From NCBI GenBank assembly GCA_030429835.1, contig JAUIGC010000001.1, positions 1 through 64,000 on the forward strand: 64,000 bases of DNA. Direction: 5' to 3'. Positions 8,794-53,799 of the stretch are shown piece by piece. Origin of the DNA: Bacteroidia bacterium (GTDB taxonomy: Bacteria; Bacteroidota; Bacteroidia; Flavobacteriales; Flavobacteriaceae). Made by a program: the position numbers and the translations under genes. Each line of letters starts with the position of its first letter. Position 1 is the first letter of the stretch. The notes under the pieces were generated by a model. It ran no database searches and was not told the DNA's origin. It saw only the letters and a program-made list of their open reading frames with translations.

Positions 8794-8794
8794 G

Positions 8795-10582: not shown

Positions 10583-10626
10583 AGATAACCAATGTGAATT
10601 TGTTTTGCTTATTTTGCCTTCATATT

Positions 10627-29790: not shown

Positions 29791-29800
29791 GAACTAAGAA

Positions 29801-31227: not shown

Positions 31228-32226
31228 ATGCCAGTAATACGGTCAATTATTCCCTATATTTTAATTTTTATGGGGAGCACCATATATTCACAAGAAGTTC
31301 TGAGCAGAGTTTCTGTAAAAGAAAACTATTTTGTTACTGAAACCCAGGAGCTAATTGTTTTTCGGGGAATGAGTTCTAGTGATCCGGACAAATTGGATAG
31401 GGAAGGAATATGGACCAAAGGATATTTTGATGAAATAAAAAATTGGGGTGCTAACTTAGTTCGTTTTCCTATTCATCCAGAACGATATAAAAAAAGAGGA
31501 AAGGAAGCCTACTTCAAACTTTTGGATAAGGGTATTCAATGGGCAAGTGAAGCAGGGTTATATGTGATTATTGACTGGCATAGCATAGGAAATCTAAAAA
31601 CTGGGTTGTTCCAAGCTGAAATGTACGATACGGACTTAAAGGAAACATTCAAGTTTTGGCGTGAGATTGCAATACGGTATGGCAATAATACAACAGTTGC
31701 CTTTTATGAACTTTTTAACGAACCTACCAGTGCGCAAAATAGGTTCGGTACACTTAATTGGGAGGAGTGGAAGGAAATAAACTTGGAAATTATTGAAATT
31801 GTAAGAGCTAATGGAGGAAAGGGAATACCTTTAATTGCAGGTTTTAATTGGGCATATGATTTGACTCCAGTGAGCTCGGAACCTTTGGAGGTGGAGGGTA
31901 TCGCATATGTAAGTCACCCATATCCGCAAAAAAGAGAGAAACCATGGGAGGAAAAATGGACCAAGGATTGGGGGTTTGTAAAGGAAAAATACCCTTTGAT
32001 ACTTACAGAATTAGGATTTTGCGGTCCAGAAGATCCTGGTGCACATATACCGGTTATTAGCGACGAATCATACGCAGAAGCAATTACGGATTATTGTGAT
32101 GAAAGAGGTATTTCCTATGTGGTTTGGGTTTTTGACAAGCAATGGGCCCCTAGGCTATATGTAGATGAAAACTATACCCCTTCACGCCAAGGCCGTTATT
32201 TCAAAAAAAAGCTGAGAAGCTATTGA
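31228..32226 (+). CDS. Glycoside hydrolase family 5 (cellulase/mannanase-like)
   Basis: Signal peptide; NWGANLVRFPIHPERY, VIIDWHS, AFYELFNEPTS (acid/base Glu), PLILTELGF (nucleophile Glu). Confidence 0.88.
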   Translation: MPVIRSIIPYILIFMGSTIYSQEVLSRVSVKENYFVTETQELIVFRGMSSSDPDKLDREGIWTKGYFDEIKNWGANLVRFPIHPERYKKRGKEAYFKLLDKGIQWASEAGLYVIIDWHSIGNLKTGLFQAEMYDTDLKETFKFWREIAIRYGNNTTVAFYELFNEPTSAQNRFGTLNWEEWKEINLEIIEIVRANGGKGIPLIAGFNWAYDLTPVSSEPLEVEGIAYVSHPYPQKREKPWEEKWTKDWGFVKEKYPLILTELGFCGPEDPGAHIPVISDESYAEAITDYCDERGISYVVWVFDKQWAPRLYVDENYTPSRQGRYFKKKLRSY

Positions 32227-32948: not shown

Positions 32949-34796
32949 ATGCTTCGAACCACAGATATTGTAATTATAGCTATATATCTCACTGCAACGA
33001 TTATCATTGGATTGATACTTCGGAAAATGGCGGCAAAGAGTAAAGGGGACTATTTACTTGGGGGCAATTCAATTCCCTGGTATATGCTAGGGTTGTCAAA
33101 TGCTTCTGGAATGTTTGATATTTCCGGAACAATTTGGTTGGTCACCTTAATGTTTGTTTATGGGATTAAAAGTGCATGGATTCCCTGGCTTTGGCCAATT
33201 TTTAATCAGATTTTCATGATGGTTTATTTATCCAGTTGGCTCCGAAAATCAAATGTTACTACGGGTGCGGAATGGATACAAACACGCTTCGGAACTGGAC
33301 GTGGAGGAAAACTTTCCCATTTAATTGTTGTTTTATTTGCCTTATTAAGTTGTCTAGGATTTCTAGCCTATGGATTCATAGGGCTAGGGAAATTTGTAGA
33401 AATTTTTCTTCCCTGGGAATTATTGAACCCTTATGTTCCATTTGAGGTTCCCTTACGTTATGTACCTCACTTATATGGTATAATGTTCACGCTTTTTGCC
33501 ATTTTTTACACCCTTTTGGGTGGCATGCGAGGTATTGTGTGGGCAGATGTACTTCAATTTGGAATTATGACTATTTCTGCAGTAGTGATAGGGTACCTTG
33601 GATTTAAAGCGATTGGAACAAATCCTCTTAATGTACCCCAGGGATGGATGAGTCCCTTTTTCGAATGGAAACTCAATCTGGATTGGAAGGAAATTATACC
33701 CCAAGTAAACCAAAAGATAGCCTCTGACGGCTATGGGTTATTCACTGTGTTCTTTATGTTAATGGTATTTAAAGGCATATTGGTGAGTTTAGCCGGACCT
33801 GCCCCCAATTATGACATGCAAAAAATTCTATCTACAAAGTCTCCCCAGGAGGCCTCCAAAATGAGTGGCCTTGTTTCGGTAGTACTTATGCCCATACGAT
33901 ACCTAATGATTGCAGGTTTTACTGCTTTAGCCCTGATTTATTATGAACGTTTAGACTTGTTGAAAGCGACAGGGGATGTTGATTTCGAACTTCTATTGCC
34001 GTCGGCTATTCTTGAGTTTGCACCAGTTGGACTTTTAGGACTTTTGTTGGCTGGGTTACTGGCTGCATTCATGTCCACCTTTGCCGGCACATTGAACGCT
34101 GCCCAGGCATATTTAATTAATGATATTTATCTAAATTATAAAAAAGAAAAAGTAAATCCGGCCCAAGTCAAGTATGTCAATTATGGTTCAGGTCTACTTG
34201 TGGTATTGGTGAGCATAATACTGGGGTTTTTTGTTGAGGATGTCAATTCGGTTTTACAATGGCTGGTATCTGCTCTTTATGGAAGTTATGTACTTGCGAA
34301 TATACTCAAGTGGCACTGGTGGAGATTTAATGGTCATGGCTTTTTTTGGGGAATGGTATCAGGAATGATTCCTGCCCTTGTACTTCCAATTGTATTTGCA
34401 GAAACCCTAGAACTATATTATTTTCCTGTTTTATTATTGACTTCCTTATTGGGATGCTTAATCGGAACATATTCCGCTCCACCAACAAACCATGAAATTT
34501 TGTCTAACTTCTATATAAGTATTAGACCTTGGGGTCTATGGAAACCCTTACGGGAGGCCCTGAAAGAACATCACCCTAAAATAGAGAAGAATAAATATTT
34601 CAAAAGGGACATGTTTAATATTTTCATTGGTATTATTGCCCAAACCTCCTTGGTCCTATTACCGATGTACTTAATCTTCAGACAGACCTTACCTGTGTTC
34701 ATTCTTCTACCTATTTTGATTGGATGTATCTATCTTTTAAAAAAATACTGGTGGGATACTTTAAATGACACCAATGACCTTATAGATAAAGAATAA
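32949..34796 (+). CDS. Sodium:solute symporter (SSS family) sugar transporter
   Basis: Many TM helices; N-terminal SKGDYLLGGNSIPWYMLGLSNASGMFDISGT typical of SSS sugar transporters. Confidence 0.88.
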   Translation: MLRTTDIVIIAIYLTATIIIGLILRKMAAKSKGDYLLGGNSIPWYMLGLSNASGMFDISGTIWLVTLMFVYGIKSAWIPWLWPIFNQIFMMVYLSSWLRKSNVTTGAEWIQTRFGTGRGGKLSHLIVVLFALLSCLGFLAYGFIGLGKFVEIFLPWELLNPYVPFEVPLRYVPHLYGIMFTLFAIFYTLLGGMRGIVWADVLQFGIMTISAVVIGYLGFKAIGTNPLNVPQGWMSPFFEWKLNLDWKEIIPQVNQKIASDGYGLFTVFFMLMVFKGILVSLAGPAPNYDMQKILSTKSPQEASKMSGLVSVVLMPIRYLMIAGFTALALIYYERLDLLKATGDVDFELLLPSAILEFAPVGLLGLLLAGLLAAFMSTFAGTLNAAQAYLINDIYLNYKKEKVNPAQVKYVNYGSGLLVVLVSIILGFFVEDVNSVLQWLVSALYGSYVLANILKWHWWRFNGHGFFWGMVSGMIPALVLPIVFAETLELYYFPVLLLTSLLGCLIGTYSAPPTNHEILSNFYISIRPWGLWKPLREALKEHHPKIEKNKYFKRDMFNIFIGIIAQTSLVLLPMYLIFRQTLPVFILLPILIGCIYLLKKYWWDTLNDTNDLIDKE

Positions 34797-34805: not shown

Positions 34806-36002
34806 ATGCTGATCACGAAAAGGTATGAAGATATAAAGGTGGAGATGTTTGATGAACTGCATCGGATATTGGAGTATTGGGCCTCATACTCTATTGATGC
34901 TAAGTATAATGGTTTTGTTGGAAGACGTGATTTTTATAATAATTTAATTCCTAATGCGAATAAAGGCATCATTTTGAACTCTAGAATTTTATGGTCATTT
35001 TCTTCGGCATCAATTTTCTTAAACACGAAACAATATATGAGCCTTTGCGATAGGGCATTCCAGTATCTTAAAAGTTACTTTAAGGATGAGTTAAATGGTG
35101 GTGTTTTTTGGGAAGTACATTTTGACGGCTCACCATCAAATACTCGAAAACAAGTTTATGCTCAATCTTTTGTCATATATGCCTTGAGCGAATATTACAA
35201 ATTGACAAAAAACGAAGAAGCCAAACTATGGGCAATAGATTTATTTGAAATACTTGAAAAATATGCCAGAGACCGTATAAACCTAGGGTATTATGAAGCT
35301 TTTAACGAGGATTGGAGTCCTATAATGGACATGCGTTTAAGTGAAAAGGATTTAAATTGTGCCAAATCAATGAACACCCATTTACACCTATTGGAGGCCT
35401 ACACCAATCTTTACCAGGTTTACAAAGCTGAGTATTTAAAAAAGGCACTCGAAGAATTGATCTACCTTTTTCAAAACAAATTTTTGGAGAAAAGTTACCA
35501 TCATACACTTTTTTATAATGAGCATTGGGCTCCTTTAAGTCAAAAAATTTCATATGGTCACGACATTGAAGCAGCATGGCTCATGATCGAGGCAGCTAAG
35601 GAAATTAACGATAGAACGATGCTAAAGGAAGTAGAAAATAATTCGCATAAAATCATTTCTAAGTTTATGGATGAAGCTTTGGATAGAGCCGGAGCGGTTA
35701 TGAACGAATATAATACAACAACAAAAACATGGGATGCTGATAGACACTGGTGGCCGCAAGTTGAGGCACTGATCGGGCTTAAATATGGGTATGAGCTAGT
35801 AGGTACTTCAGAATATTTGGAGAAGTCAATAAAAATTTGGGAATTTATCAAGGGCAATCTTTTAGACTACAGGAATGGTGAATGGCATTTTAGAGTTGAT
35901 ACAACTGGACAAGTATGTTTAGATGAAGATAAAATCAGTATGTGGAAGGCCCCTTATCATTCGGTTAGGGCCTGCATTAAAATGAACCAAATTTCGCAAT
36001 GA
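34806..36002 (+). CDS. AGE-family epimerase, likely cytoplasmic cellobiose/mannobiose 2-epimerase
   Basis: No signal peptide; RILWSFSSAS, NTHLHLLEAYTNLYQV, GHDIEAAWLMIEAA, RHWWPQVEALIGL, WKAPYHSVRACI. Confidence 0.88.
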   Translation: MLITKRYEDIKVEMFDELHRILEYWASYSIDAKYNGFVGRRDFYNNLIPNANKGIILNSRILWSFSSASIFLNTKQYMSLCDRAFQYLKSYFKDELNGGVFWEVHFDGSPSNTRKQVYAQSFVIYALSEYYKLTKNEEAKLWAIDLFEILEKYARDRINLGYYEAFNEDWSPIMDMRLSEKDLNCAKSMNTHLHLLEAYTNLYQVYKAEYLKKALEELIYLFQNKFLEKSYHHTLFYNEHWAPLSQKISYGHDIEAAWLMIEAAKEINDRTMLKEVENNSHKIISKFMDEALDRAGAVMNEYNTTTKTWDADRHWWPQVEALIGLKYGYELVGTSEYLEKSIKIWEFIKGNLLDYRNGEWHFRVDTTGQVCLDEDKISMWKAPYHSVRACIKMNQISQ

Positions 36003-37261
36003 CAACAAATTTTCGAATAGCCTTTTTAATTTTGAGTATACCAATTATGGTCAGTTGTTCAACAAATACGGACTATGATTCTTATATACCTGAGATAAAT
36101 GGTGGGACCAAGGAAAATGATAGTTTACAATTTCCAGTTTTGGATTTCGAACCTGAAGAAGCGTATTTATATATGGTGAACCCTAATGCTACTTTGGAAA
36201 CCACTAGCCTATTCTATAACCTTAAATCAATTTCGCAAACAAGAATTATCCTGGGTCAACAAGATGCCTTTAGCAGTTTTTATATGAATAATGCGGGCGA
36301 TTCAGACATAAAAAAACTTACTGGAAGCAATCCTGGATTATTGGGTTCAGACTTTATGTTCATCACCGATGATTTGAACGATGGATCTATGTCCAACTGG
36401 TATTTCCAACAGGAAAATCAAATTCGGCATAATGTGATAGAGGCATTTGATATGGGCCTGGTGAACGTTTTCTGTTGGCACCTTCGAGAGCCATTTGAAG
36501 GAAAGGTTTTTTATACCGATGAAATGAGCCAATTCCAGAAAGAAAATGCCTTGAAAAGCATTTTTCCAGGAGGTGAAAATCATGCGTATTATAGACAGAA
36601 ACTAGAAAAAATTGCCTCCTTTTCAAAAAGTCTTGTAAATGCGGAAGGTCTAACGGTTCCTATAATATTTAGACCTTTTCATGAGTTTGATGGTGATTGG
36701 TTTTGGTGGGGTGCGCCTTATAGTAGTATAGATGAGTATATTCAGCTGTGGCAATTTACCATTTCTTATCTTACACGTGATCTTATGGTTGATAATTTAC
36801 TCTTTGCGTTCTCCCCGGACAATACTTTTAATTCGGAAGGCGATTACTTACAAAGATATCCAGGAGATGACTTCGTTGATATTTTAGGCATGGACAAATA
36901 TGGTGATTTTATGGCTCAAAATTCACAGGATATCGAAAGCGCTTCCCAAAAACTTCAAATTATATCCCATCTGTCTGAGACAAAAAACAAAATAGCAGCA
37001 TTAACCGAAACCGGTTTTGCATTCAATCTTGATGAACATAATGTTATATCTGATTATTATACAAACAAACTTTACAAAGCCATAGTTGGTGAAGATATCA
37101 ATATTGCCTTCATCATGTTTTGGTTTAATTCGCAAAATTCCTATTACACTCCCTTACCTGGTCTTGAGGGGTCTACTGATTTTATTAAGTTTGTCTCCAT
37201 GCCAGAAATACTGTTAGCTGATGAACTCCCCGATATGTATAATTTATCCAATGGCTTTTAG
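35999..37261 (+). CDS. GH26 beta-mannanase-like lipoprotein
   Basis: Lipobox IMVSCSTN; ILGQQDAF, FRPFHEFDGDWFWWG (acid/base Glu), AALTETGF (nucleophile Glu). Confidence 0.9.
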   Translation: MTTNFRIAFLILSIPIMVSCSTNTDYDSYIPEINGGTKENDSLQFPVLDFEPEEAYLYMVNPNATLETTSLFYNLKSISQTRIILGQQDAFSSFYMNNAGDSDIKKLTGSNPGLLGSDFMFITDDLNDGSMSNWYFQQENQIRHNVIEAFDMGLVNVFCWHLREPFEGKVFYTDEMSQFQKENALKSIFPGGENHAYYRQKLEKIASFSKSLVNAEGLTVPIIFRPFHEFDGDWFWWGAPYSSIDEYIQLWQFTISYLTRDLMVDNLLFAFSPDNTFNSEGDYLQRYPGDDFVDILGMDKYGDFMAQNSQDIESASQKLQIISHLSETKNKIAALTETGFAFNLDEHNVISDYYTNKLYKAIVGEDINIAFIMFWFNSQNSYYTPLPGLEGSTDFIKFVSMPEILLADELPDMYNLSNGF

Positions 37262-37292: not shown

Positions 37293-38291
37293 TTACCTAT
37301 TTAGAATACAGTCAATATAGGCTATCTCTTCCTCTTGAAAAATAAGATTATTTACAGCTCCCAGATTATTTAACAATTGATCTGCTGTACGTACCCCTAC
37401 CAATACCGAAGTTATAACCGGATTTCTTAATATCCAAGAAATAGCCATTTGGGCAAGACTCTGTCCTCTATCAAGTGCGACCGAATTCAAGATATTTACC
37501 TTTTCGAGAATCTTCTTATTAATTTCGTTCTTTTGTAAAAACCAAGACTCTTTAGCCGCTCGGGAATTTTCAGGAATTCCTTTCAAATATTTGTCAGTCA
37601 GAATTCCCTGATTTAATGGTGAAAATGCTATACAGCCAATTCCCTCCTTCTCAAGTGTATCCAAAAGCCCCTCTTCAACCTTACGGTCAAACATGTTATA
37701 ACGAGGCTGATGAACTAAACAGGGAGTACCTAAACTCTTTAAGATTTTTTGTGCCTGTCGTGTTTGATTTACATTGTTAGAGGATGATCCAATATAAAGC
37801 GCTTTTCCTTGACGCACCATAAGGTCCAATGCCATTAAAGTCTCTTCAAGGGGAGTATCGGGATCAGGTCGATGATGGTAAAAAATATCCACATAATCCA
37901 GTCCCATTCGTCTCAGGCTTTGGTCAATACTTGCCATCAAATACTTTTTCGAGCCCAGATTACCATAAGGTCCTGGCCACATTTCCCAACCAGCCTTGGT
38001 CGAAATAATGAGTTCATCCCTAAAGGATTTAAAGTCAAGCTTCAGGATTTTCCCAAAATACTCTTCTGCAGAACCGGGTGGTGGCCCATAATTATTTGCC
38101 AAATCGAAATGGGTAATACCATGATCAAATGCGGTTCGTATAATTTTCCGGGCATTCACGAAATTATCTACATGACCAAAATTATGCCAAAGCCCCAAAG
38201 ACAATAACGGCAACAACAATCCACTCTTTCCGCACCTTCTGTATTCTAAAGGTGTTTGATAACGTTTTGTATTGGGTCTATAGGGTAGCAA
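37293..38291 (-). CDS. Aldo/keto reductase
   Basis: FDLANNYGPPPGSAEEYFGK, DYVDIFYHHRPDPDTPLEET, GVRTADQLLNNL. Confidence 0.92.
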   Translation of the reverse strand: MLPYRPNTKRYQTPLEYRRCGKSGLLLPLLSLGLWHNFGHVDNFVNARKIIRTAFDHGITHFDLANNYGPPPGSAEEYFGKILKLDFKSFRDELIISTKAGWEMWPGPYGNLGSKKYLMASIDQSLRRMGLDYVDIFYHHRPDPDTPLEETLMALDLMVRQGKALYIGSSSNNVNQTRQAQKILKSLGTPCLVHQPRYNMFDRKVEEGLLDTLEKEGIGCIAFSPLNQGILTDKYLKGIPENSRAAKESWFLQKNEINKKILEKVNILNSVALDRGQSLAQMAISWILRNPVITSVLVGVRTADQLLNNLGAVNNLIFQEEEIAYIDCILNR

Positions 38292-39401
38292 CTATGGTAT
38301 TAATTTTTCTAAGAATGGCTTTAGCTGTATAGCCATTCCTTTATGCTCTTCAATATTGGGGTGTGATCCACAACCTGTAGGTTTATTAGTTTCAAATTCA
38401 AAAATCGATATATTCATATCCTTTGAAAAATGATTCTTTATTTGAATTAGGCAATCTAAAAGTATTTGACCTTTTTCTCCTGAAAGCATTGGTGACGTGA
38501 GTAAGACCATTTTTACATCAGGTGTCTTCTCTACCAATTTATCCACAAAATTGATATAGTTTCTAATAAATTTATTCCTATTGAAAGGGAGTCTTCCCTT
38601 CGTACCATCACCTTCCGATAGATCATTGGTCCCCAAACCAATGCACATTATATCGGGCGCCTTAGTATAGGAAAAATCGAAAATCGAATCTTTGTTTAAA
38701 TAGAGGTTATCATAAATGTCCGGCATAATAGGTTCCAATTTATTTTCATCATTCCAGTTCCTATGCATTCCGATTCCAGAAACCGCACTCAGTAAATAAT
38801 CGGCATTGAGGGAGCGAGCAACTTTGGGACCGAATGCCAAATAAGCATTGTGTTGGTCAAACCATTTCCCTGTATCGCATGGAACTTCAGAGGTATCAGC
38901 TCCCATGCCACAAGTTATTGAATTACCGATAAACTCAATCAAAAACGTATTTTCAGAATTATAAGACGTTATTGTTTTAGCAGTAGCACCTAGAAAAGCC
39001 AAGGCTCCATTTGCTGATTCAGTAGCCTTATGGAGACCGATCCTATTTGCTCCCTTTCCAGATAACCCTAAGGATATTTTATTCACGGAATCACCGTATA
39101 CCTTATATTTTTTAACAAAATCCCCATTAATCGAAACCGTTAAATAATCGTAGTGCGGATTACTAGCTTTTAGATACAGTTGAAGGGAGTCTCCATATGC
39201 CTCGAATTCAACTCCGGAAGCCGGACCAATAAGAAGTGTTTTATCATTCTGTTTTAGAACACGACCACTATACTGGAAGACATTTAAATCCGAGGCATAA
39301 AAACTAGGCTTATTTTCATTCGAATGGCAGCCCAAGAGCAATAAAATTGTCAACGATGTACTAACCCAACTCCTAAGATTAATGAAATTGAATGGCATCA
39401 T
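38292..39401 (-). CDS. SGNH/GDSL carbohydrate esterase, CE2-like
   Basis: Lipobox LLLGCHS; N-terminal beta-rich domain then FIGNSITCGMGAD (Ser block), MCIGLGTNDLSEG, C-terminal GCGSHPNIEEH (Asp/His block). Confidence 0.85.
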   Translation of the reverse strand: MMPFNFINLRSWVSTSLTILLLLGCHSNENKPSFYASDLNVFQYSGRVLKQNDKTLLIGPASGVEFEAYGDSLQLYLKASNPHYDYLTVSINGDFVKKYKVYGDSVNKISLGLSGKGANRIGLHKATESANGALAFLGATAKTITSYNSENTFLIEFIGNSITCGMGADTSEVPCDTGKWFDQHNAYLAFGPKVARSLNADYLLSAVSGIGMHRNWNDENKLEPIMPDIYDNLYLNKDSIFDFSYTKAPDIMCIGLGTNDLSEGDGTKGRLPFNRNKFIRNYINFVDKLVEKTPDVKMVLLTSPMLSGEKGQILLDCLIQIKNHFSKDMNISIFEFETNKPTGCGSHPNIEEHKGMAIQLKPFLEKLIP

Positions 39402-40285
39402 AAAACTCTTCTTATACCATTGAATTCAGCCCTAAAAATACTAGGCGTTATTCCCTTCACCTTTTTAAAGACCCTATTAAAATTCGCCATATTGTTAAAT
39501 CCACATTTAAATCCAATCTCACTAATGGTCAAATCAGTTTCTATCAACCATCTTGAAGCATAACTGATACGGGTGTCATTTATATATTCAACAAAGGTCT
39601 TACCCGTTCTTTTTTTTATAAATCTATTAAAGGTGACCACCGTCATATTTACAAGTTCGGATATTTCATCGAGGGATACCTTTCTATCGTAATTCTCTTG
39701 TACATAATCATATACCTTTTTTATCTTTTTACTATTCTCAAAATCATTTAATTGAGAAACACTGGTAGATAAAAGCCTTTGATTTCTAGAGTTGGCCAAA
39801 TCATGGAGAATTGACATAAGGTCTAAAAAGTAATCGATATTGGTCGTCTTCGAAAGTCTCATTATTTTGGGAAGACATTCCTCGGAAATTTTCCTCGAAA
39901 ATAGAATACCATGGTTAGCTCTGTGAAATAAATCCCTTAACGGTTTAAAAATTGTTCTTGAAAGTAGTTTGGCGTCAAGAAGATCTTCATGGAATTGTAT
40001 GGTAATTTCATGAATAAGCTTGTTTTTAGAATTGTGCGTTTCCCAACCATGTATAAGATTGGGACCTACAAGTACCAATTCAATATCGTCAATTTCTTCA
40101 AGATTATCTCCAACGACTCGCCTAACTCCTTTCCCATTAATTATGCAATTAAGTTCATATTCCGGGTGGAAGTGAATCGGAAAGTCAAAGTCTTCCTTAA
40201 AACGGTCAAAAACGATAAAACTATCCTCTGGAGTAAGTGGAGTAATTTCTCTATGAACGTTACTTAAGGCAAATTGATGATCCAT
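39398..40285 (-). CDS. AraC-family transcriptional regulator with cupin-like sensor domain
   Basis: FPIHFHPEYELNCIINGKGVRRVVGD sensor; C-terminal tandem HTH ...LTISEIGFKCGFNNMANFNRVFKKVKGITPSIFR. Confidence 0.95.
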   Translation of the reverse strand: MDHQFALSNVHREITPLTPEDSFIVFDRFKEDFDFPIHFHPEYELNCIINGKGVRRVVGDNLEEIDDIELVLVGPNLIHGWETHNSKNKLIHEITIQFHEDLLDAKLLSRTIFKPLRDLFHRANHGILFSRKISEECLPKIMRLSKTTNIDYFLDLMSILHDLANSRNQRLLSTSVSQLNDFENSKKIKKVYDYVQENYDRKVSLDEISELVNMTVVTFNRFIKKRTGKTFVEYINDTRISYASRWLIETDLTISEIGFKCGFNNMANFNRVFKKVKGITPSIFRAEFNGIRRVL

Positions 40286-40297: not shown

Positions 40298-41665
40298 TTA
40301 TTTTTTTCTATTTTCTTGTGTTTCCAACATTTCCTTGCAATTGACTAGTGCCCTATAATTGTGGTAGGCCCCTTTCCAAATATGTCCCTTGCGATTTAAC
40401 TCTGTTTCCGGTCTTTTATCCAGCCCCCACTCATACCATCCACCGTGCTTTTTATCCATTAGGTAATCATTTGTATACTTCCAAAGCGTATTAAAATGTT
40501 CATAATAATTCAAAGAATCATTGGGAAAGTAATGGTGCATTAGCAAAAGGCTATTTAGCCCCTCTGCTTGTGACCACCAATTTTTATCATCATTAACGAT
40601 AGTTATAGATTCCTCATTTTTAAAGTAATAGCCCCCATCGTAGAACCCGCCAACTTGGTTATCCCATCCATTCCTTAATGAATGATCGACCATTTTTTTA
40701 CCTTTTTTCAACGTTTCGTCAAATTCCCAATTACCTAGAACATGTGAGGCTTCCAGCATTAAGTAGGCCGTTTCAACATCATGTCCGAATGAGACATGGT
40801 CCAGAAAATAGTGCTTTGATATCGAATCTTTGGGGCTTTCTACAAATGTCACGGGTTTCCAATCTTTTTCAAAGAATAAATTCATGTAGTCTTTTTCATT
40901 TGTAATTGTGTCCCTAATAAGTGTTAACAATTCCTTTATCCTTTCTTCAAGAATTTCATCCGGCCATACTTTGTACAAGGTAGTAAAGGCCTCCAATAGA
41001 TGTATACTGCTGTTTTGGTCTTTATAGCCAACATCGGAAATGGATGGAAAGCCTTTTCTTCTCTCAATTGGGGTTCCATTAACATTTAATGACTGAAAAT
41101 ATCCTTTATGAATACTATCGTGGCTATGGTTCTCCAGCCAATTAAAGGTTGACTTTGCCAAATTAAGTGCCTCTTCATTCTCTGAGGCCGCATAATACAT
41201 CGACAATCCATAGATAGCAAAAGAGTTACCATAGGCAGTTTTTTCATTACCAAAATTTAGGATAGGTGTTCCATCACTGGTCACTAAGTTATAAAACCCT
41301 CCGTTAACGGTATCCCACATAAAATCCCTTAGATATTCATAGCCATGATGGGCATATTTGAGATACTCCTCTTTCATAGAGGGAACTTTTTCCGATGCCA
41401 TTGAAGCAGTCCATAAGTGCCTGGCTTGGGTGACAATCATTTTTTCGGATTTATCACCAACCTGAAAATCATAGGATATATTACTGAAGTAACCACCATT
41501 GATCGTATCCAGTACCAAAGGATACCATCTTTCCAATAGACCTTCCCTCGCAGCTTTGTCAAATTCTAAAAGTAGGGTACTGTTCTGGGACTGTGCATGC
41601 TCATTTGAGGTACATCCGAGTGTTAGCCCGAAAAGGAGGAGAATTGCGATAATGTTTTTCCACAT
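40298..41665 (-). CDS. AGE-family epimerase, predicted lipoprotein (exported)
   Basis: Lipobox LTLGCTSN; RHLWTASMAS, GHDVETAYLMLEASH, NWWSQAEGLNSL, WKGAYHNYRALV. Confidence 0.88.
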   Translation of the reverse strand: MWKNIIAILLLFGLTLGCTSNEHAQSQNSTLLLEFDKAAREGLLERWYPLVLDTINGGYFSNISYDFQVGDKSEKMIVTQARHLWTASMASEKVPSMKEEYLKYAHHGYEYLRDFMWDTVNGGFYNLVTSDGTPILNFGNEKTAYGNSFAIYGLSMYYAASENEEALNLAKSTFNWLENHSHDSIHKGYFQSLNVNGTPIERRKGFPSISDVGYKDQNSSIHLLEAFTTLYKVWPDEILEERIKELLTLIRDTITNEKDYMNLFFEKDWKPVTFVESPKDSISKHYFLDHVSFGHDVETAYLMLEASHVLGNWEFDETLKKGKKMVDHSLRNGWDNQVGGFYDGGYYFKNEESITIVNDDKNWWSQAEGLNSLLLMHHYFPNDSLNYYEHFNTLWKYTNDYLMDKKHGGWYEWGLDKRPETELNRKGHIWKGAYHNYRALVNCKEMLETQENRKK

Positions 41666-41740
41666 ATTATGAAGCTATTTACAATAAATATAAAATATTC
41701 TTTATTGCTTAAAGATTCTTGAAATAATTGTACTCCAAAA

Positions 41741-41756
41741 TGACAAAATAGTACTA
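41741..41756 (+). promoter_or_regulatory. PUL-shared motif TGACAAAATAGTACTA in the divergent AGE/GH9 promoter
   Basis: 37 bp upstream of the GH9 start; same core as 32709 and 32574. Confidence 0.45.
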
Positions 41757-41792
41757 TGATGCAATTTTATAATCCTACTACTTTTAATCCGC

Positions 41793-44297
41793 ATGAAATT
41801 TTTACCCTCAATTCTACTTTTACTACAATTCGGAACGGCTGTTGCCCAACTTCAGTACGATTCAATAACTACCCATTTTGTGATTAACGATTTGGAATAT
41901 TTGGAAAGGACGGGTGTAAATGTAATGCTTGCCCATGATTTCTATCCCGAAAGTCATCAAGGAGGTGTGGGCATAATTCAAAATGGTGTCCGGGTTGCCA
42001 CAAATGGGGACCTTAGATTGGAGTCCGCTCCAGGTCAGTGGCAACCTGTACCAAAGGTTGGGGAGAGATTGGTAGATCGTAGGAATCAAGAAATTAGCGT
42101 TGTTATGTCCTATCCGGATAAAAGCAAGGACAAAATAGGCTTTAACCCTATCGATTATCCTGACTTAAATTTTTCCTATACCCTAAAAATAAAACCTGCG
42201 GGAACTTCATTTAAAATAATAGTTGATTTGGACAAACCTTTACCAGAGGAATGGATTGGCAGAGTGGGTTTAAATATCGAACTTTTTCCTGGGCTTCTAT
42301 TTGGAAAGTCTTACTACATGGATGATTCCTTTGGTATTTTCAACCGACAGGCCAATGGTCCGGGGAAAACAAATAAATATGGCATCTACGAACTTGAGCC
42401 CATGGCTACGGGATCACGGTTGACAATAGCTCCAGAAAATTCCGAACAAACCATGACAATTGTAAATGTCGATGGAAGCCCTTTACAATTATTGGATGGT
42501 CGGGCACAACATAGCAACGGGTGGTTTATAGTTCGTTCATTAATACCATCTGGAGCTACAAAGAATGCCATTGAATGGTTAGTTGAACCAATTGCAAAAG
42601 AAAACTTTGTGTACGACCCAATTGTACAAGTTTCCCAAGTGGGCTATCATCCCAAACAAAATAAGGTCGCCGTCATTGAAACGGATATAAATGATGTACC
42701 AAGAGTGCTATCCTTATTTCGAATAAACGAACAAGGTGGTAAGGTTCAAATCTCTTCCGACATACCTGAATTATGGGGTGATTTCTTAAGATATAGATAT
42801 TATCAATATGACTTCACCCAAATAACAGAGCCTGGAATTTACCAAATTCAATATGGAAATTTCATGACCAGTCCTTTTCAAATTTCAGAATCCGTTTTTA
42901 CCAGAAATGTTTGGCAACCCACCTTAGAATATTTTTTGCCTGTTCAGATGTGTCATATGCGAGTAAAGGATAGATATAAGATTTGGCATGGACTATGCCA
43001 TATTGATGATGCAAGGATGGCTCCAATTAACATGAATCATTTTGATGGGTATCTCCAAGGTCCACAGACTTTCACAGCCTATGAGACCGGGGAGCATGTA
43101 CCTGGTCTCAATGCTGGGGGCTGGCATGACGCAGGTGACTACGATATACGTATTGAATCCCAATCCGCTACCGTACATGGGCTCTCACAAATATACGAGC
43201 TTTTTAAAATAGATTATGACAATACCACTATTGACAGGTCAGCTCAACGTGTGGATATGCTTACTCCTGATGGAATACCTGATATTCTTCAACAAATCGA
43301 GCACGGGGTCATTTCAATTGTAGGTGGGTACACTAATATGGGTAGATTTTATCGTGGACTAATTGTTCCGACCCTAGATCAGTATAGATTATTGGGAGAC
43401 CCTGTAAATCATAGTGATGGCAAGGATTATGATGGCAGGAATGTAAGTCAAGAATTTCAATGGGGAAAAATGGGGGAACCAGATGATCGATGGGTATTTA
43501 CTGAATCCAATCCACGCCGTGAAATTTCAACTGCTGCAGCGCTAGCGGCTGCTGCAAGGGTACTAAAAATTCACAACCCTGTCCTTTCCAATAGCTGTTT
43601 AAGGATTGCCGAGGACATTTGGTCACTTTCCAAAAAGGAAGATCCTTTATTGAGAATGGGTTTGGCCGTTGAACTTTTTCAGACCACAAGTGCCAAAAAA
43701 TACAGAGAATATATTCTAAAAAATGAAGAAAGCATCATTAATAATATTGCAAATACCGGATGGTTAGTAGGTCCAATATTACCGCATTTGAATGATGTGG
43801 ATTTTAATACAAAAATTGAGACTGCAATCAAGTCATACTTTAAGAAAATTGAGGAATTAGGAAAAAGGACCCCTTATGGTATACCCTATGAGCCTAATAT
43901 TTGGGGGGCTGGTTGGGGTATTCAAAGCTTTGGGGTAAAACAATATTTTCTGCACACAAGTTTTCCTGATATTTTCCCGAACACTTATATGTTTAACGCC
44001 TTGAATTTTATTTTAGGCGTCCATCCCGGAGTGAACACTTCTTCGTTCACTTCGGGTGTGGGATCTAAATCAATAACGCAGGCTTATGGGGTAAACAGGG
44101 GCGAGTTTTCGTATATCCCTGGAGGCATTGGTTCCGGAACAGCTTTGATTCGACCCGATTTTCCAGAATTATTGGAATGGCCATTTCTATGGCAACAAAC
44201 AGAATATGTTCTTGGAGGGGGTACTACGGATTACTTGCTACTTGTTTTAGGAACCCAGAAGTTACTCACAGATACTATTAAAACTACTAGCAAATGA
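41793..44297 (+). CDS. Glycoside hydrolase family 9 with N-terminal cellulase Ig-like domain
   Basis: VSQVGYHPKQNKVAVIE (CelD_N), GGWHDAGDYDIRIESQS, VHPGVNTSSFTSGVG; C-terminal GH9 pattern. Confidence 0.85.
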   Translation: MKFLPSILLLLQFGTAVAQLQYDSITTHFVINDLEYLERTGVNVMLAHDFYPESHQGGVGIIQNGVRVATNGDLRLESAPGQWQPVPKVGERLVDRRNQEISVVMSYPDKSKDKIGFNPIDYPDLNFSYTLKIKPAGTSFKIIVDLDKPLPEEWIGRVGLNIELFPGLLFGKSYYMDDSFGIFNRQANGPGKTNKYGIYELEPMATGSRLTIAPENSEQTMTIVNVDGSPLQLLDGRAQHSNGWFIVRSLIPSGATKNAIEWLVEPIAKENFVYDPIVQVSQVGYHPKQNKVAVIETDINDVPRVLSLFRINEQGGKVQISSDIPELWGDFLRYRYYQYDFTQITEPGIYQIQYGNFMTSPFQISESVFTRNVWQPTLEYFLPVQMCHMRVKDRYKIWHGLCHIDDARMAPINMNHFDGYLQGPQTFTAYETGEHVPGLNAGGWHDAGDYDIRIESQSATVHGLSQIYELFKIDYDNTTIDRSAQRVDMLTPDGIPDILQQIEHGVISIVGGYTNMGRFYRGLIVPTLDQYRLLGDPVNHSDGKDYDGRNVSQEFQWGKMGEPDDRWVFTESNPRREISTAAALAAAARVLKIHNPVLSNSCLRIAEDIWSLSKKEDPLLRMGLAVELFQTTSAKKYREYILKNEESIINNIANTGWLVGPILPHLNDVDFNTKIETAIKSYFKKIEELGKRTPYGIPYEPNIWGAGWGIQSFGVKQYFLHTSFPDIFPNTYMFNALNFILGVHPGVNTSSFTSGVGSKSITQAYGVNRGEFSYIPGGIGSGTALIRPDFPELLEWPFLWQQTEYVLGGGTTDYLLLVLGTQKLLTDTIKTTSK

Positions 44298-45289
44298 AAA
44301 ATTGCATTTATTGTTTTATCACATTCTTTACTGTTGGAAGTCTTCAGTCGCAGACCCCGCCTGTGAACAAAAATTCTACCAAGGAAGCGCAAAGGTTGTT
44401 AAATTATATATACACTTTGGGAGATAGAATCCTAACAGGGCAACATAGTTATAATGAAAATCCCAGCTCTTTTTACAATGTTGCCACGGAGATTACTGGA
44501 GAGGAACCTGCCGTGTGGGGTACTGATTTTTATTGGAATAGAAATCAAAATCCAGGTGATAGAATAGTTGAGGAGGCAATTAAAAAACATGCCAACGGCA
44601 ATATAATTACCCTTATGTGGCATGTCGGTCGACCTCATGATACTCCTCCTTTCACTTGGCGCGAAAGTGTACAAGGGGAGATAAGCGAAAAGGATTGGCA
44701 AGCTTTGCTTACACCAGGTACAAGTTTACATAAACGCTGGGAAGAACAAGTCGACCAAATCGCTTTGCCCCTTAAAGAACTACAACGGAAAGGTATCCCC
44801 GTACTTTGGAGACCATACCATGAAATGAATGGAGTTTGGTTTTGGTGGGGGAACAAAAAGGGTGACAACGGATTTAAAAAACTTTGGATTCAACTGTATG
44901 ATAGAATGGTAAATGTCCATCATCTAGATAATTTGATTTGGGTCTGGAATGCGAATGGTCCTAGAGATATACCTGGTGACGAAGCATATGATTATCTTGA
45001 TTTCTTTCCCGGTCATGACTATGTTGATATTTTAGCCACTGATGTGTATCATGGCGATTATGAACAAAAAGACTACGAACAGTTAGTTAAGTTGGCTCAA
45101 GGAAAGCCCGTAGCCTTGGGTGAGGTCGGTAAACTACCGAATCGTACTATACTTAATTCACAACCTAAATGGTCTTGGTTCATGGTCTGGTCGAACTGGA
45201 TTACGACTGCCAATACCCCTGAAAATGTTAAGGATATATATGAATACACAAAAACAATTTCTAAAAATGACATTGACATATCAAATTAA
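44294..45289 (+). CDS. GH26 beta-mannanase/mannosidase-like protein
   Basis: Signal peptide; RILTGQHSYNENPS, VLWRPYHEMNGVWFWWG (acid/base Glu), PVALGEVGKLPN (nucleophile Glu); ATGA overlap with GH9. Confidence 0.9.
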   Translation: MKNCIYCFITFFTVGSLQSQTPPVNKNSTKEAQRLLNYIYTLGDRILTGQHSYNENPSSFYNVATEITGEEPAVWGTDFYWNRNQNPGDRIVEEAIKKHANGNIITLMWHVGRPHDTPPFTWRESVQGEISEKDWQALLTPGTSLHKRWEEQVDQIALPLKELQRKGIPVLWRPYHEMNGVWFWWGNKKGDNGFKKLWIQLYDRMVNVHHLDNLIWVWNANGPRDIPGDEAYDYLDFFPGHDYVDILATDVYHGDYEQKDYEQLVKLAQGKPVALGEVGKLPNRTILNSQPKWSWFMVWSNWITTANTPENVKDIYEYTKTISKNDIDISN

Positions 45290-47225
45290 TTTGAAATACC
45301 TTATCTGGATTTTATTTATTTTGTCTCCACTTCATGCCACATCCCAAACCGAGTTCACGACTTGGGGAAATATTACGGGAATTCGGGTGGACAATCAACT
45401 TATGGAATTCAATTCGAGCCTAGTTGTCGTAAGCGATGATTTTAACGAAAGAAAAACTAGAAAAGAGGGACAAAGAATAAATTTCACACGCACCGAAGGT
45501 CACAAGATATTCACATTTGAAATGGAAAACCTTCGTTGGTTAGAAGATATTTCGACAACTGGTAATGGCATCTCCACTATAGACATTGAATTTTCATCTG
45601 AAAAAGACACCCTTTTAAATGGTGCCTTTTTTAGAATTGAACTGCCTAAGGAGTTCGGTTTAGACACGAAATTTGATATAAAGGGACCAACCTCCATGTC
45701 CTTAAGGGATATTACAAAGCCCATCGATAAAGCCCAGTATAAATCACCTGTTTCTTCGTTATCTATCGCTTCAAAAAACAGAAAGCTTGAGATTTCCCTG
45801 GAAAAGGTTACGGATATCAGCATCAGGGCCTTGGATTCGATACGTCCAAAAGTTGAACTTAATTTCAGAATTGCCGGAGGGACTATTAAAGCCGATTCCA
45901 TTTACAGGAACAGTTTTTCGATTGCGGCCTCCGGGGCTATTGATAAGTCACCAATATCGTTAAAATTATTTCCTGATCAGCTAGGTGAAAGATTTGATGG
46001 AATCGGCGGTAATTTTAGGCTTCAAAATCCTAACTTGGATCCACAAGTAATCGATTATAGTCTCAAAAATTTGAGGGTATCTTGGTCAAGGGTTGAAATG
46101 CCGTGGCATTTATGGCACCCAGAACGCAATATTGACCCTACTACCGCTGCCAAAAATGGAAACTTGCACCCTAAAGTCGAAGCGGCAATGAAGATGGCCC
46201 AACGGCTTGACAAGATGGGAATTCCCGTTATTTTGGCAGCATGGTTTCCCCCAGAGTGGGCAATTAATGGGACTCGTTCCAGAGGAGAAAATCCAGATGG
46301 CACTAGGGGAAATACATTAGACCAGGACAAGAAAAGTGCAATATATAAGTCGATTACGGACTATATTCTATATTTAAAAAACACCTTCGGAGTAGAAACG
46401 GTCATGTTTTCTTTTAATGAATCAGATTTGGGAATCGATGTACGCCAAACACCCGAGGAACATAATATACTAATAAAGGAATTGGGAAGTTATTTTAGGT
46501 CTCGAGGAGTGAACACTAAATTTCTATTGGGAGATACCGCCGACGCGAACGGTTGGGAATTTACAACAAAGGCCTCCTTAGATCCTGAAACAAGGCCCTA
46601 TATAGGTGGCGTATCATTTCATTCCTGGCGAGGTTGGACCATTGAAAACCTAGTAAAATGGTCGGATATTTCAAAAAGAGTAGGATTACCTCTTTTTGTT
46701 GGAGAAGGAAGTATTGATGCTGGTGCATGGCGTTACCCCCAAATCTTTGAAGAACCTACATATGCTCTAGATGAAATCGATGTTTATTTAAAAATTTTGA
46801 ATGTTGCACAACCATTGACTATTCTACAATGGCAACTGACAGCGGATTATTCACCCATGTCCGGTGGTGGCATTTTTGGAAATGAAAAAGAGGATTTATA
46901 TCCTACCCAACGATTCTTTAATTTAAAACAATTGGGCAGTACACCAGACAATGTCTTCTCTATACCTTCAAAAAGTGACAACGATTGGATAACCTCCGCT
47001 GCTTTCCTAAATAAACAGAAGAGCAAAATTGCCATTCATTTAGTCAACAAGGGTGCCACAAGAAATATAACCATTGAGGGAATACCTAATAGAATAAAAA
47101 GGGTTAAGATGTATAAAACCAATACGCAAAAATCCTATGAACATTCCGAGACAATTCCTGTTGTCGATGGAAGTATTACTCTTTCATTGGAGGGAGCAAG
47201 TTATATTTCATTAATTAACGATTAA
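45267..47225 (+). CDS. Clan GH-A glycoside hydrolase (GH30/GH39-like, family uncertain)
   Basis: Signal peptide after Met at 45267 (ORF track start 45120 lies within GH26 CDS); MFSFNESDLGID (N-E acid/base) and GLPLFVGEGSID (nucleophile Glu); C-terminal beta-sandwich-like segment. Confidence 0.65.
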   Translation: MTLTYQINLKYLIWILFILSPLHATSQTEFTTWGNITGIRVDNQLMEFNSSLVVVSDDFNERKTRKEGQRINFTRTEGHKIFTFEMENLRWLEDISTTGNGISTIDIEFSSEKDTLLNGAFFRIELPKEFGLDTKFDIKGPTSMSLRDITKPIDKAQYKSPVSSLSIASKNRKLEISLEKVTDISIRALDSIRPKVELNFRIAGGTIKADSIYRNSFSIAASGAIDKSPISLKLFPDQLGERFDGIGGNFRLQNPNLDPQVIDYSLKNLRVSWSRVEMPWHLWHPERNIDPTTAAKNGNLHPKVEAAMKMAQRLDKMGIPVILAAWFPPEWAINGTRSRGENPDGTRGNTLDQDKKSAIYKSITDYILYLKNTFGVETVMFSFNESDLGIDVRQTPEEHNILIKELGSYFRSRGVNTKFLLGDTADANGWEFTTKASLDPETRPYIGGVSFHSWRGWTIENLVKWSDISKRVGLPLFVGEGSIDAGAWRYPQIFEEPTYALDEIDVYLKILNVAQPLTILQWQLTADYSPMSGGGIFGNEKEDLYPTQRFFNLKQLGSTPDNVFSIPSKSDNDWITSAAFLNKQKSKIAIHLVNKGATRNITIEGIPNRIKRVKMYKTNTQKSYEHSETIPVVDGSITLSLEGASYISLIND

Positions 47226-47321: not shown

Positions 47322-48512
47322 TTATTGGAATTCTTCATTGCGCTGTATTAAATCGTGGATAGCAGCTACCGAATTATTGGAATATAACTTATCTTCAGGT
47401 GTACTTTTACAGTAGTCTAGAAGAATTTTTATATGTGAGGTCGCCACGTGCATCCGAGTATCCGATGATGCATAATAAATAAACACTTTACCATCCTCAT
47501 CAGCAATCCATCCATTGCAAAATAGAACATTTCCTACATCACCGATAATCTCCTGATTATTTGGCGCCATAAGATATCCACCAGGTTGGTATATGACTTT
47601 GGTGATATCTTTTAAATCCGTCATGAACATATACAGGACATATCGAAGTCCTGCAGCAGTATTTCTAACCCCATGTGCCAAATGCAACCAGCCTTCAGTA
47701 GTTTTTATTGGTGTTGGCCCTTGGCCATTTTTTAATTCGTACACAGTATGATACATTCGGTTGTTGATAATAATTTCATCCTTTACTTCAGGATAAGACA
47801 TATCATGTATATATCCTAACCCTATTCCTCCTCCAGAACCTGCTAGAATAAAATCATCCTGTGGTCTTGTATAGATTGCATATTTACCATCAACAAACTC
47901 GGGATGCAATGTTACGTTGCGCTGTTGGATAGTCGTTGAAATTAAATCAGGTAGACGCTCCCATTTCTTCAAATCCTTAGATCTAATTATGCCTGCATTC
48001 GAAATTGCAGCGACCAAATCCGAGGAAGGAGCATTAGTATCTTTTCTCTCAGTACAAAAAATTCCATATATGTATCCGTCCTCGTGTTTGACTAGGCGCA
48101 TATCATAGACATTGACATCTGGATTTTCAGTTTGTGGAAGTAGTAATGGTTTTTTCCAAAATCTAAAGTTATCTATACCATTTTGACTTTCTGCAAAGGC
48201 AAAATATGATTTTCTATCCGCACCTTCTACCCTAACTGCGAGTATATATTTATTATTCCACTTAATTGCACCAGCATTGAACGCAGCATTTACGCCTATT
48301 CTTTCAATCCCATAAGGATTTGTTGATGGGTTTAAATCATATCGCCAGTGTATAGGAATGTGTTCAGCTGTAATCACCGGATGATGGTAACGATAAATAA
48401 TCCCATTGGATTTCAGCTCCCTTTTATTTTTACGAGTAATTAAAGCATTATAATCGTCAAAAATCTTTTGAAATTTTACTAAGGGCTGAAGATGGGTAAA
48501 ATTATTAATCAT
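47322..48512 (-). CDS. GH130 family, 4-O-beta-D-mannosyl-D-glucose phosphorylase-like
   Basis: ERIGVNAAFNAGAIKWNNKYILAVRVEGADRKSYFAFAES, GHPEF-type TLHPEFVDGKYAIYTRPQDDF, VLFCNGWIADEDGKVFIYYASSDTRMHVA. Confidence 0.9.
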   Translation of the reverse strand: MINNFTHLQPLVKFQKIFDDYNALITRKNKRELKSNGIIYRYHHPVITAEHIPIHWRYDLNPSTNPYGIERIGVNAAFNAGAIKWNNKYILAVRVEGADRKSYFAFAESQNGIDNFRFWKKPLLLPQTENPDVNVYDMRLVKHEDGYIYGIFCTERKDTNAPSSDLVAAISNAGIIRSKDLKKWERLPDLISTTIQQRNVTLHPEFVDGKYAIYTRPQDDFILAGSGGGIGLGYIHDMSYPEVKDEIIINNRMYHTVYELKNGQGPTPIKTTEGWLHLAHGVRNTAAGLRYVLYMFMTDLKDITKVIYQPGGYLMAPNNQEIIGDVGNVLFCNGWIADEDGKVFIYYASSDTRMHVATSHIKILLDYCKSTPEDKLYSNNSVAAIHDLIQRNEEFQ

Positions 48513-49031: not shown

Positions 49032-50591
49032 TTAATATCCAGGGTTCTGGTCCAAATTAGGATTGATGTCTATTTGAATTCTCGGTATTGGTAACAATTC
49101 ACGTCCTTGAGGTATTGTAATTCCAAACTTGCTGGCCATATACTCACTTACTTGACCGGTCCTCCTTAAGCAAAGCCACAAAGAAAACTCCCCGCCAAGT
49201 TCATGGCGGTATTCGTCAAAAATAGCGTCCATAATATTTCCAGATGGTGCAGGAGCAGTTCCTCCCCATGCGCGATTTCTCACACGCATTAAAGTCTGCA
49301 TTGCTAAACCATCATTTCCACTTTTATGATAGGCTTCGGCCAAACTAATTAATACTTCCCCGTAGCGAAGCCAAATATGATTTTGTCCGCTAAAAATATT
49401 TGGGCCGTTCCATCCACTTATAACAGGATTTCTCCATGTTTTTACGGCATAATAACCAGTTCTTCCTGGTGATCCGTCCGTGCCTAACCAAGGCTCAGTT
49501 TTAGTACCCAGGGTATTAATTCCGTTATAATTTGCCTGAATGTTAGGATAATCGGAGATATTAATTAAAGGATCCGGATGTTCTTCTCCTGGGGCAATTA
49601 TGGTAAAATCCCTTCTTAAATCTCCAAGCTCAAAAGATTCGTATAATGCCTCTGTTGGGATACCGCCATATGACCCCCCATTAATTTCCGATGGCATATT
49701 AAATGACTGCAGAAATGTTTTCTCTTCATTCCTATTCCATCCTAAGTCACCGTTATCATTGAATTGAATTTCGAATAATGACTCTTTACCATTTTTGTTA
49801 GCGAGTGCATGAACATCTAAAAAATTTTCCTCGAGAAAAAAGTGTCCCTCCAATTGTTCAAATGCTTCAACGGCATCATCATATCTTCCCAACCACATGT
49901 AAACACTACCCAACATAGCATAGGCAGTTCCTTTGGTAACCCTTCCTTTTTCTAAGTCATAGCTCCAAGGCAATCTTTCTGCTGCATCCTCTAAGTCTAA
50001 AGCCAATTGGTTCCAAACTTCTTCTTCCGTATTTCTAGGAGCAAAAAAATCAGAGTCCCCCGTTGTAGGTTCCAATATTAGGGGTACACCCCCCATGGTA
50101 CCTGTAAGATAATAATAGAATATACTTCTTAAAACTAACGCCTCTCCTATCAATCTATTACCTAAAGCTTCGTCAATATTTCCTGCATCTATAGCAGGTT
50201 GCAAATTGGAGAGCGCCACATTGGCCCTTCCAATCCCATAATAATGTACCGGCCATAATTTTCCTGATATTTCATTATCGGGATTTAATTCGAACTGCCT
50301 AAACTCTTCGTCCAAACCATTACCCTTCCAGTCTTGTGTTAATCTGTCCAAAGTTTGAATGGCTTTGGTATTATATTCATTAGGTATTCCATCCGGTCCC
50401 CCGTAGGCTCCTTGAAATGCATCATATATTCCAGTTATAGTTGCAACGGCAGTAGATTCGGAAGTATAAACCGTAGCATCACTGACCCCATCAGTTTTGG
50501 GATCTTGTAGGGCATCGTCAGAGCAGCTATAAATTACCACTCCAATGATAATTAAAGCAAACAGAATGTTTAAAATTTGATTTTTTTTCAT
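49032..50591 (-). CDS. susD: RagB/SusD family outer-membrane lipoprotein
   Basis: Lipobox IGVVIYSCSDD; RANVALSNLQPAID, GEALVLRSIFYYYLTGTMGGVPLI, C-terminal LLPIPRIQIDINPNLDQNPGY. Confidence 0.95.
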   Translation of the reverse strand: MKKNQILNILFALIIIGVVIYSCSDDALQDPKTDGVSDATVYTSESTAVATITGIYDAFQGAYGGPDGIPNEYNTKAIQTLDRLTQDWKGNGLDEEFRQFELNPDNEISGKLWPVHYYGIGRANVALSNLQPAIDAGNIDEALGNRLIGEALVLRSIFYYYLTGTMGGVPLILEPTTGDSDFFAPRNTEEEVWNQLALDLEDAAERLPWSYDLEKGRVTKGTAYAMLGSVYMWLGRYDDAVEAFEQLEGHFFLEENFLDVHALANKNGKESLFEIQFNDNGDLGWNRNEEKTFLQSFNMPSEINGGSYGGIPTEALYESFELGDLRRDFTIIAPGEEHPDPLINISDYPNIQANYNGINTLGTKTEPWLGTDGSPGRTGYYAVKTWRNPVISGWNGPNIFSGQNHIWLRYGEVLISLAEAYHKSGNDGLAMQTLMRVRNRAWGGTAPAPSGNIMDAIFDEYRHELGGEFSLWLCLRRTGQVSEYMASKFGITIPQGRELLPIPRIQIDINPNLDQNPGY

Positions 50592-50601
50592 TGCTTATTT
50601 T

Positions 50602-53600: not shown

Positions 53601-53799
53601 CAGCAGGCACATTGTCTATTACATAATTACCATCGAAATCGGATTGGGTCCCATTGGTTGTACCCTTTACCACGACGTTGGCACCTGGCAAAGGGCCATT
53701 GGCATCAGAAATGGTTCCGGTGACGGTTTGACCATATGATAAAGAACCAACTAAAAAAGCAAGACTTACTAAAAGTTTTCTAAATAAAGGTATTTCCAT
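50602..53799 (-). CDS. susC: SusC/RagA family TonB-dependent transporter
   Basis: Signal peptide, CarboxypepD_reg-like VTGTISDANGPLPGANVVVKGT, TonB-box-like DEVVVVAYGTSTKKDLTGAV, plug NIRGTGSFTNTTPLYIVDGYP. Confidence 0.97.
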   Translation of the reverse strand: MEIPLFRKLLVSLAFLVGSLSYGQTVTGTISDANGPLPGANVVVKGTTNGTQSDFDGNYVIDNVPAGAILVFTYIGYTKQEIAVNNRNTVNVNLQEDFESLDEVVVVAYGTSTKKDLTGAVGVVSGEELAKFPTSTVDQALQGRTSGVQIVSNSGAPGASVTVNIRGTGSFTNTTPLYIVDGYPIQDISYLNPNNIQSISVLKDASAGAIYGVRASNGVVIIETKKGTNGKVTFEVDSWSGFRLQPKFLDVLDAQTFANFAVNLSQENNGPDQPNEQLVPYVGWNDPSSLTNVDWQDFAYNSGFRTSTNLTVRGGGENSRFAFTGGYIEEDGVVVGSSYKRYNAGLNGQFDVTENFRVNGDIKYAYTESTVQLNQGYYNIVKLLGNVPHLADADAVNAQGNTNGTNIPFDGMGNYGGYPDITQQTFRGSTNVIGNALQNENDNGSTNVQLNMGLEYDFFKDFTAKLTVGGNSNTFFGQNFTPQYYRSQVNVDLNTSALFDVQTNVNNEVLGELLLEYNKEVGKHKINLLGGISGQRNYFKRVRNRGAGFLNNDIRDISQAADIQIVEGYRTRRTLASYFGRLNYNFDSKYYITGTIRRDGVGDTFGANNLWGVFPSVAAGWNIDEESFMDNSIFDILKIRGSWGETGSFFGIDPFQFAVFYSAGNANNDANYDFGGTTSQGLYPLVLPNPDLKWESQIQTDIGLEAEFFNRSIYLTVDWFKKEASDFLFREPIPIQNGFGFRAVNSGSVVNEGFEFLLGHRKIDGDFTYDISANLTLLNNEITELTSQQDFVVLNSEFVPSFSTANFWFGLTRSEVGGQVGSYYAFRADGLFQTQDEIDAANAAAQAAGFDFYQSENTAPGDRRFKDLNGDGRVDGDDREIIGSPIPDFFGGLNMNFSYKNWDLGIDIYGSYGSEIMNFTRLELETAGGYGLADAFTNIGIDYYNGRWTGPGTSTTYARAIGNDSEIQNGRASDYYMEDGSFLRLRNLRLGYNFQNNLTERLGMTSAKVYLSGQNLATWTGYSGYDPEVGQNADINGVNNAQTRGIDAGQYPISSSLTLGVNLQF

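Follow-up and report, generated by a model that had tools for sequence, protein, structure and literature searches.

An exported AGE-fold protein linked to mannan-degrading enzymes is a putative periplasmic reducing-end 2-epimerase in Bacteroidota

A predicted lipoprotein with the AGE fold

The window (the whole 64,000-nucleotide stretch of DNA analysed here, from a marine bacterium) carries at 40298-41665, on the reverse strand, a gene for an exported protein of the AGE fold, a predicted lipoprotein which from its PF07221 domain, its match to the cellobiose 2-epimerase RmCE and its catalytic positions is proposed to be a periplasmic reducing-end 2-epimerase. The gene lies inside a beta-mannan utilisation locus extending from a GH5 gene to a SusD/SusC pair and, judging from sequence and gene context, it is fairly probable that its product epimerises Man to Glc at the reducing end of (gluco)manno-oligosaccharides in the periplasm, as a member of a distinct AGE subfamily.

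The open reading frame is intact, with an ATG start and no internal stop, and specifies 455 amino acids, of which residues 58-426 are spanned by PF07221 (E 2.3e-38). The AlphaFold model (mean pLDDT 85.9, pTM 0.87) has the (alpha/alpha)6 barrel which together with that domain marks the AGE superfamily, and its fold matches are RmCE and AGE structures, headed by RmCE with mannobiose (9l8i; TM 0.79/0.88, 27% identity). By sequence, the closest solved relatives are cellobiose 2-epimerases (CEs), with RmCE at 164 bits (412 aa). A sequence-only reading of this DNA had described a complete AGE fold retaining GHDVETAY, NWWSQAEG and WKGAYHNYR; all three motifs are present, and domain and model confirm the fold.

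Catalytic centre

Residues R82, Y145, N218, H222, H295, E298, W364, W430 and H435, corresponding to R66, Y124, N196, H200, H259, E262, W322, W385 and H390 of RmCE, are invariant in all 52 members of the subfamily. The triple histidine of the cellobiose 2-epimerase active site (RmCE H200, H259 and H390) is present with its partners, and the listed catalytic positions, the third His and the Tyr/Asn pair included, are identical to those of characterised CEs, for which the roles of the His triad and the contact of Tyr/Asn to the reducing-end O2 have been described (PMC5726027). An exported, lipid-anchored protein might instead serve at the periplasmic face as a binding protein or as a pseudoenzyme that does not epimerise, and the subfamily has no member of known activity; but invariance of the catalytic residues in 52 of 52 members, across many families, is unexpected for a decaying enzyme, and such a role seems very unlikely.

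The CEs of EC 5.1.3.11 (RmCE 3wkf/9l8i, StCE 5zig, RaCE 3vw5 and EpiA of Segatella copri) share with the exported protein not only fold, His triad and catalytic residues but also the mannan-locus context, with a GH130 MGP and a symporter in the locus. The characterised CEs are, however, leaderless (EpiA has been described as cytoplasmic; PMC12704710), whereas the subfamily is exported and ~27-30% identical to them. In addition, residues invariant in the CEs are replaced subfamily-wide: RmCE T197/H198 by S-S, W265 by F or Y and P388 by N, T or A, with loss of E308; and an insertion of ~15 residues precedes GHDVE. Given these replacements and the insertion, substrate specificity may differ from that of the CEs.

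A distinct subfamily

Matches from a survey of 201 genomes of the same family and 396 genomes across the phylum Bacteroidota fell into two groups, exported and canonical, with profile scores of ~360-770 bits and (partial hits aside) at most 236 bits, respectively. A tree of 64 sequences, midpoint-rooted in its final form and leaving out the AGE outgroup rows L031-L033, separates the two groups with full support and has the characterised CEs on the canonical side: RmCE, StCE and BtCE cluster with leaderless CEs (97/93), and the exported subfamily forms a separate clade (100/100), not placed in this tree inside that of the characterised CEs. In the phylum sample the subfamily occurs in ~30 of 396 genomes, across 14 of the sample's numbered families.

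The exported protein is ~30% identical to its leaderless neighbour encoded at 34806-36002. The earlier claim that the two are paralogous holds at the level of the superfamily but not beyond it, in view of this identity and of their separate, fully supported clades. Tree and identity also rule out a recent duplication of the cytoplasmic copy, and the exported AGE is best described as a distinct subfamily, not the cytoplasmic enzyme moved to another compartment. Against the equivalog cut-off of NCBIfam NF041848 (800 bits) it scores 167 bits, and the RmCE-like paralogue, at 362 bits, likewise lies below, so that this threshold does not discriminate here. A scan of public genome contigs with the exported AGE as a single protein returned one relative, L034.

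The glucose-2-epimerase Runsl_4512 of Runella slithyformis (8h1k) is nearly as close to the exported AGE as several CEs (120 bits, compared to 164 for RmCE and 112 for RaCE), and the two share fold, a lengthened stretch ahead of the GH motif and a residue other than proline at P388. Together with the GntP permease or oxidoreductase-type genes that adjoin other exported branches, this would suit a periplasmic monosaccharide 2-epimerase, acting on free glucose or mannose or some other free sugar instead of oligosaccharides. But the Asn at RmCE position 196 and the Trp at 321 are CE-like in the exported AGE and different in 8h1k, which is ~25% identical to it and sits on a separate long branch of unsure placement. 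Also, oligosaccharides are indicated by the links and fusions with GH26A and GH9 and by the apparent replacement of a CE beside a disaccharide phosphorylase (both discussed below), so that a free-sugar substrate is judged unlikely.

Export and location

The N-terminus, MWKNIIAILLLFGLTLGC followed by TSN, comprises a short n-region with K3, a hydrophobic core and then a lipobox. The sequence-only reading had cited LTLGCTSN as a lipobox, and L-T-L-G-C can indeed be read directly (residues 14-18, ending in the Cys), as is typical of bacterial lipoproteins. The predicted lipoprotein signal peptide, MWKNIIAILLLFGLTLG followed by the putatively lipidated Cys, covers residues 1-18 (41612-41665, reverse strand). 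Export is conserved across the subfamily: 39 of the 52 members have a signal, 38 their own and one (L092) that of a GH9 to which it is fused; the 12 that lack a leader make up a single nested branch (100 SH-aLRT), and one (L113) is ambiguous. The classes are cleanly separated, the N-terminal 11-residue hydropathy maximum being bimodal (<=1.31 or >=2.01). Parsimony over canonical, exported and leaderless states requires two changes in total on the tree, on which export is reconstructed as ancestral in the subfamily and lost once. A lone odd gene with an accidental signal can be rejected, since export is conserved over the subfamily.

A signal is retained among orthologues, as a lipoprotein or an ordinary one, even though its sequence drifts. 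Its type (SPI or SPII) can differ from one close orthologue to another, in keeping with a periplasmic protein with optional anchoring. An ordinary signal peptide, with neither T9SS tail nor lipid anchor, is found in L034, L035, L036, L038, L090, L091 and L093. The acidic outer-membrane export motif is absent directly after the Cys (C-TSNEHAQ), while the SusD of the locus has C-SDD; as a criterion for surface lipoproteins this motif is a rule of thumb, and orthologue L037 carries C-KEEEE. Because of the SPI orthologues, the missing acidic motif and the ordinary signal peptides of the linked GH9 and GH26A, the periplasm is a likelier location than the cell surface. Of the earlier suggestion of export to periplasm or surface, export stands, given the conserved signals; retention of the epimerase active site likewise has good comparative support, and the mannan context is clear. 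The surface is disfavoured by SPI orthologues and the lack of the motif; 'before import' is then best taken as before inner-membrane import. Localisation is a prediction, and were the N-terminus not a working signal the protein would be a second cytoplasmic epimerase; the canonical lipobox, the retention of an SPI or SPII signal despite sequence drift, and fusion behind the signal peptide of a secreted GH9 make this hardly credible.

The mannan locus and its linked glycosidases

On the left, the locus encodes a GH5 glycosidase with a signal peptide (31228-32226, forward; PF00150), a sodium:solute symporter (32949-34796, forward; PF00474), the leaderless canonical cellobiose/mannobiose 2-epimerase (34806-36002, forward; 314 bits to RmCE, grouping with RmCE, StCE and BtCE) and a GH26 endo-mannanase lipoprotein orthologous to Muricauda GH26C (35999-37261, forward; PDB 6q78, 597 bits). 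There follow, on the reverse strand, an aldo/keto reductase (37293-38291; PF00248), a CE2-type esterase lipoprotein (38292-39401; PF17996, PF13472) and, directly downstream of the exported AGE, an AraC-type regulator (39398-40285; PF12833). By gene coordinates, a 127-bp intergenic region (41666-41792) separates the AGE gene from the divergent gene of a GH9-family protein with a CelD_N domain (41793-44297, forward; PF00759 8.4e-15, PF02927). Next come a GH26 orthologous to Muricauda GH26A (44294-45289, forward; PDB 6q75, 542 bits) and a glycosidase-like protein (45225-47225, forward), the third gene of this GH9-GH26A module; beyond it lie the GH130 MGP (47322-48512, reverse; 563 bits to 3was, PF04041) and the SusD/SusC pair (49032-53799, reverse), assigned from sequence and position. 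Similar to clan GH-A on visual inspection, the glycosidase-like protein had no match in Pfam, NCBIfam or PDB and keeps its position next to GH26A in L034, L035, L037 and L039; it may represent a new family of glycosidases or a distant member of GH30.

In eight of nine close relatives the AGE and GH9 genes are arranged divergently, this order being kept in L034-L037 and L039-L041, and GH26A lies beside GH9 in all seven close loci that extend far enough; in an eighth close genome (G146) GH26A is directly 3' of GH9 on the same contig, and in G050 the AGE/GH9/GH26A module and the main PUL lie on separate contigs. Single-ORF fusions join the subfamily to GH9 (GH9-AGE in L092, 1289 aa, with a Pro/Ala-rich linker), to GH26A (AGE-GH26A in L099, 794 aa) and to a CE2 domain (AGE-CE2 in L107, 845 aa). 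Over the 201 genomes, clade-A AGE and GH26A occur together in seven and each alone in one (Fisher 2.7e-11, or 1e-4 within CE-bearing genomes, genome kinship being ignored in both). In the GH26A-only genome a truncated GH9 adjoins mobile-element-like (relaxase/coupling-protein, restriction-type) genes. In G134 (L125, L123), relaxase/coupling-protein and restriction genes occupy the site expected for GH9 and the exported AGE, and a GH9 stump is left. GH9 occurs without the exported AGE in G017 (with GH3 and SusCD) and in G111, so it is rejected as an obligate partner. The GH9 homologue of G114 (L126) is the N-terminal part of a 2468-aa open frame.

The locus matches the PUL of Muricauda sp. MAR_2010_75, which has orthologous GH26A and GH26C, both structurally known, and for which AraC, symporter, SusC, GH130 and esterase are also reported (PMC9860051). 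According to that paper, all but the HTCS regulator of the 22 PUL proteins are induced on galactomannan, and GH26A, whose +2 subsite is blocked, fails to act on manno-oligosaccharides; a requirement for Man/Glc oligosaccharides is suspected. Its text mentions one conserved epimerase, of which the location is not given, and puts none in the periplasmic part of the cascade. Since GH26A (RS02340) and AraC (RS02325) fit the gene order of the window, FG28_RS02330 would correspond to the exported AGE gene.

Linkage and fusion, taken with the published inactivity and blocked +2 subsite of GH26A, connect that enzyme to the epimerase. It is tempting, though decidedly tentative, to suggest a periplasmic editing of sugars in which a reducing-end Man is rewritten as Glc, enabling action of a GH26A and GH9 with a Glc-requiring +1 subsite; such a step would explain both the inactivity of GH26A on pure manno-oligosaccharides and the fusions in relatives, and the exported AGE possibly supplies the Glc-ended substrate missing from the published GH26A assays. 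Alternatively, the exported protein might epimerise oligosaccharides which its cytoplasmic counterpart cannot use, their reducing end being atypical or decorated (galactosylated, acetylated or specific to algae). The CE2 deacetylase domain fused in L107, the CE2 gene in the same cluster and the pocket substitutions throughout the subfamily would agree with this, as would the report that bloom mannan is attacked by GH26A and commercial manno-oligosaccharides are not (PMC9860051). Nevertheless, the leaderless branch of the subfamily seems to serve a plain Man-Glc phosphorylase, and a role confined to such ends appears quite improbable.

The leaderless branch

A canonical CE is missing from all 12 genomes with leaderless members, in which the best matches (90-129 bits) are the exported-subfamily genes themselves, while in the exported-only genomes G410, G421 and G472 canonical CE matches reach 321-358 bits. 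An MGP-type GH130 gene adjoins six of the 12 leaderless members, several of which also lie beside a symporter. As leaderless members occur only in CE-less genomes, half of them next to a Man-Glc phosphorylase gene, this branch seems to stand in for the mannobiose epimerase of the cytoplasm. Leaderless and exported copies occur together in G580, G379, G314, G237, G449 and G564, and in the first four of these the exported copy shares its locus with GH9 or GH26A. The simplest reading of this gene context is that the subfamily catalyses a mannobiose-type epimerisation which is wanted in both compartments.

Proposed pathway

For activity, substrate, periplasmic location and order of steps we infer the following scheme. 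Uptake by SusCD would deliver beta-1,4-(gluco)manno-oligosaccharides to the periplasm, where the lipid-anchored AGE would interconvert reducing-end Man and Glc before inner-membrane import, by the His-triad chemistry of the CEs: ring opening and a cis-enediol, with His295 and His435 as putative acid/base pair and His222 as third His. Glc-ended products would then serve as substrates of GH26A and GH9, which are co-encoded and also periplasmic in this scheme, and the symporter would import Man-Glc for the cytoplasmic GH130 phosphorylase, which requires a reducing-end Glc. Against this proposal count the cytoplasmic CE already encoded in the same locus, the other branches of the exported subfamily that lie outside mannan loci, the replaced CE-invariant residues and the GH9 genes of G017 and G111, which have no such epimerase with them.

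In Bacteroides fragilis and Ruminococcus albus, Man2 is epimerised to Man-Glc and then cleaved by GH130 phosphorolysis, both steps being placed in the cytoplasm, and mannobiose epimerisation is regarded as taking place in the cytoplasm, where it supplies GH130. The scheme proposed here is alike in its order of epimerase then GH130, and differs by a further, exported epimerase with linkage to GH9 and GH26A. No periplasmic or lipoprotein cellobiose or mannobiose epimerase was found in the open-licence literature; the chemistry is known, and as far as that literature shows the exported subfamily is undescribed, together with its fusions and its position in the pathway. An exported AGE branch fused to mannan-cutting enzymes suggests a periplasmic editing step that is absent from published mannan pathways. 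If this is true, sugar editing moves before inner-membrane import, altering models of algal and plant mannan digestion by marine Bacteroidota. The exported subfamily is a concrete candidate for supplying the missing substrate of GH26A, and offers a naturally exported, diverse set of epimerases for producing epilactose-type sugars.

Other members and neighbouring genes

A third AGE protein of the same genome (G000, contig C38; L051:11379-12791, reverse strand), also a predicted lipoprotein and ~46% identical to the 40298-41665 protein, is encoded next to a Tat-type molybdopterin oxidoreductase (8632-10818) and a 2Fe-2S-like subunit, and belongs to another pathway. A Flavobacteriaceae branch of the exported AGE (L042-L049) is syntenic with TauE and symporter genes, outside mannan loci. 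In L097, L109, L111 and L112 another exported branch lies beside a GntP permease, members of the enolase superfamily and apparently Tat-exported proteins; these neighbours suggest sugar-acid metabolism. The exported AGE gene of G524 (L121:4821-6179) is interrupted by an in-frame TAG stop. Left of the PUL, the window at 26308-31027 encodes a 1160-aa lipoprotein, which recurs near other survey members (L034, L053), and a multihaem cytochrome-c-like protein.
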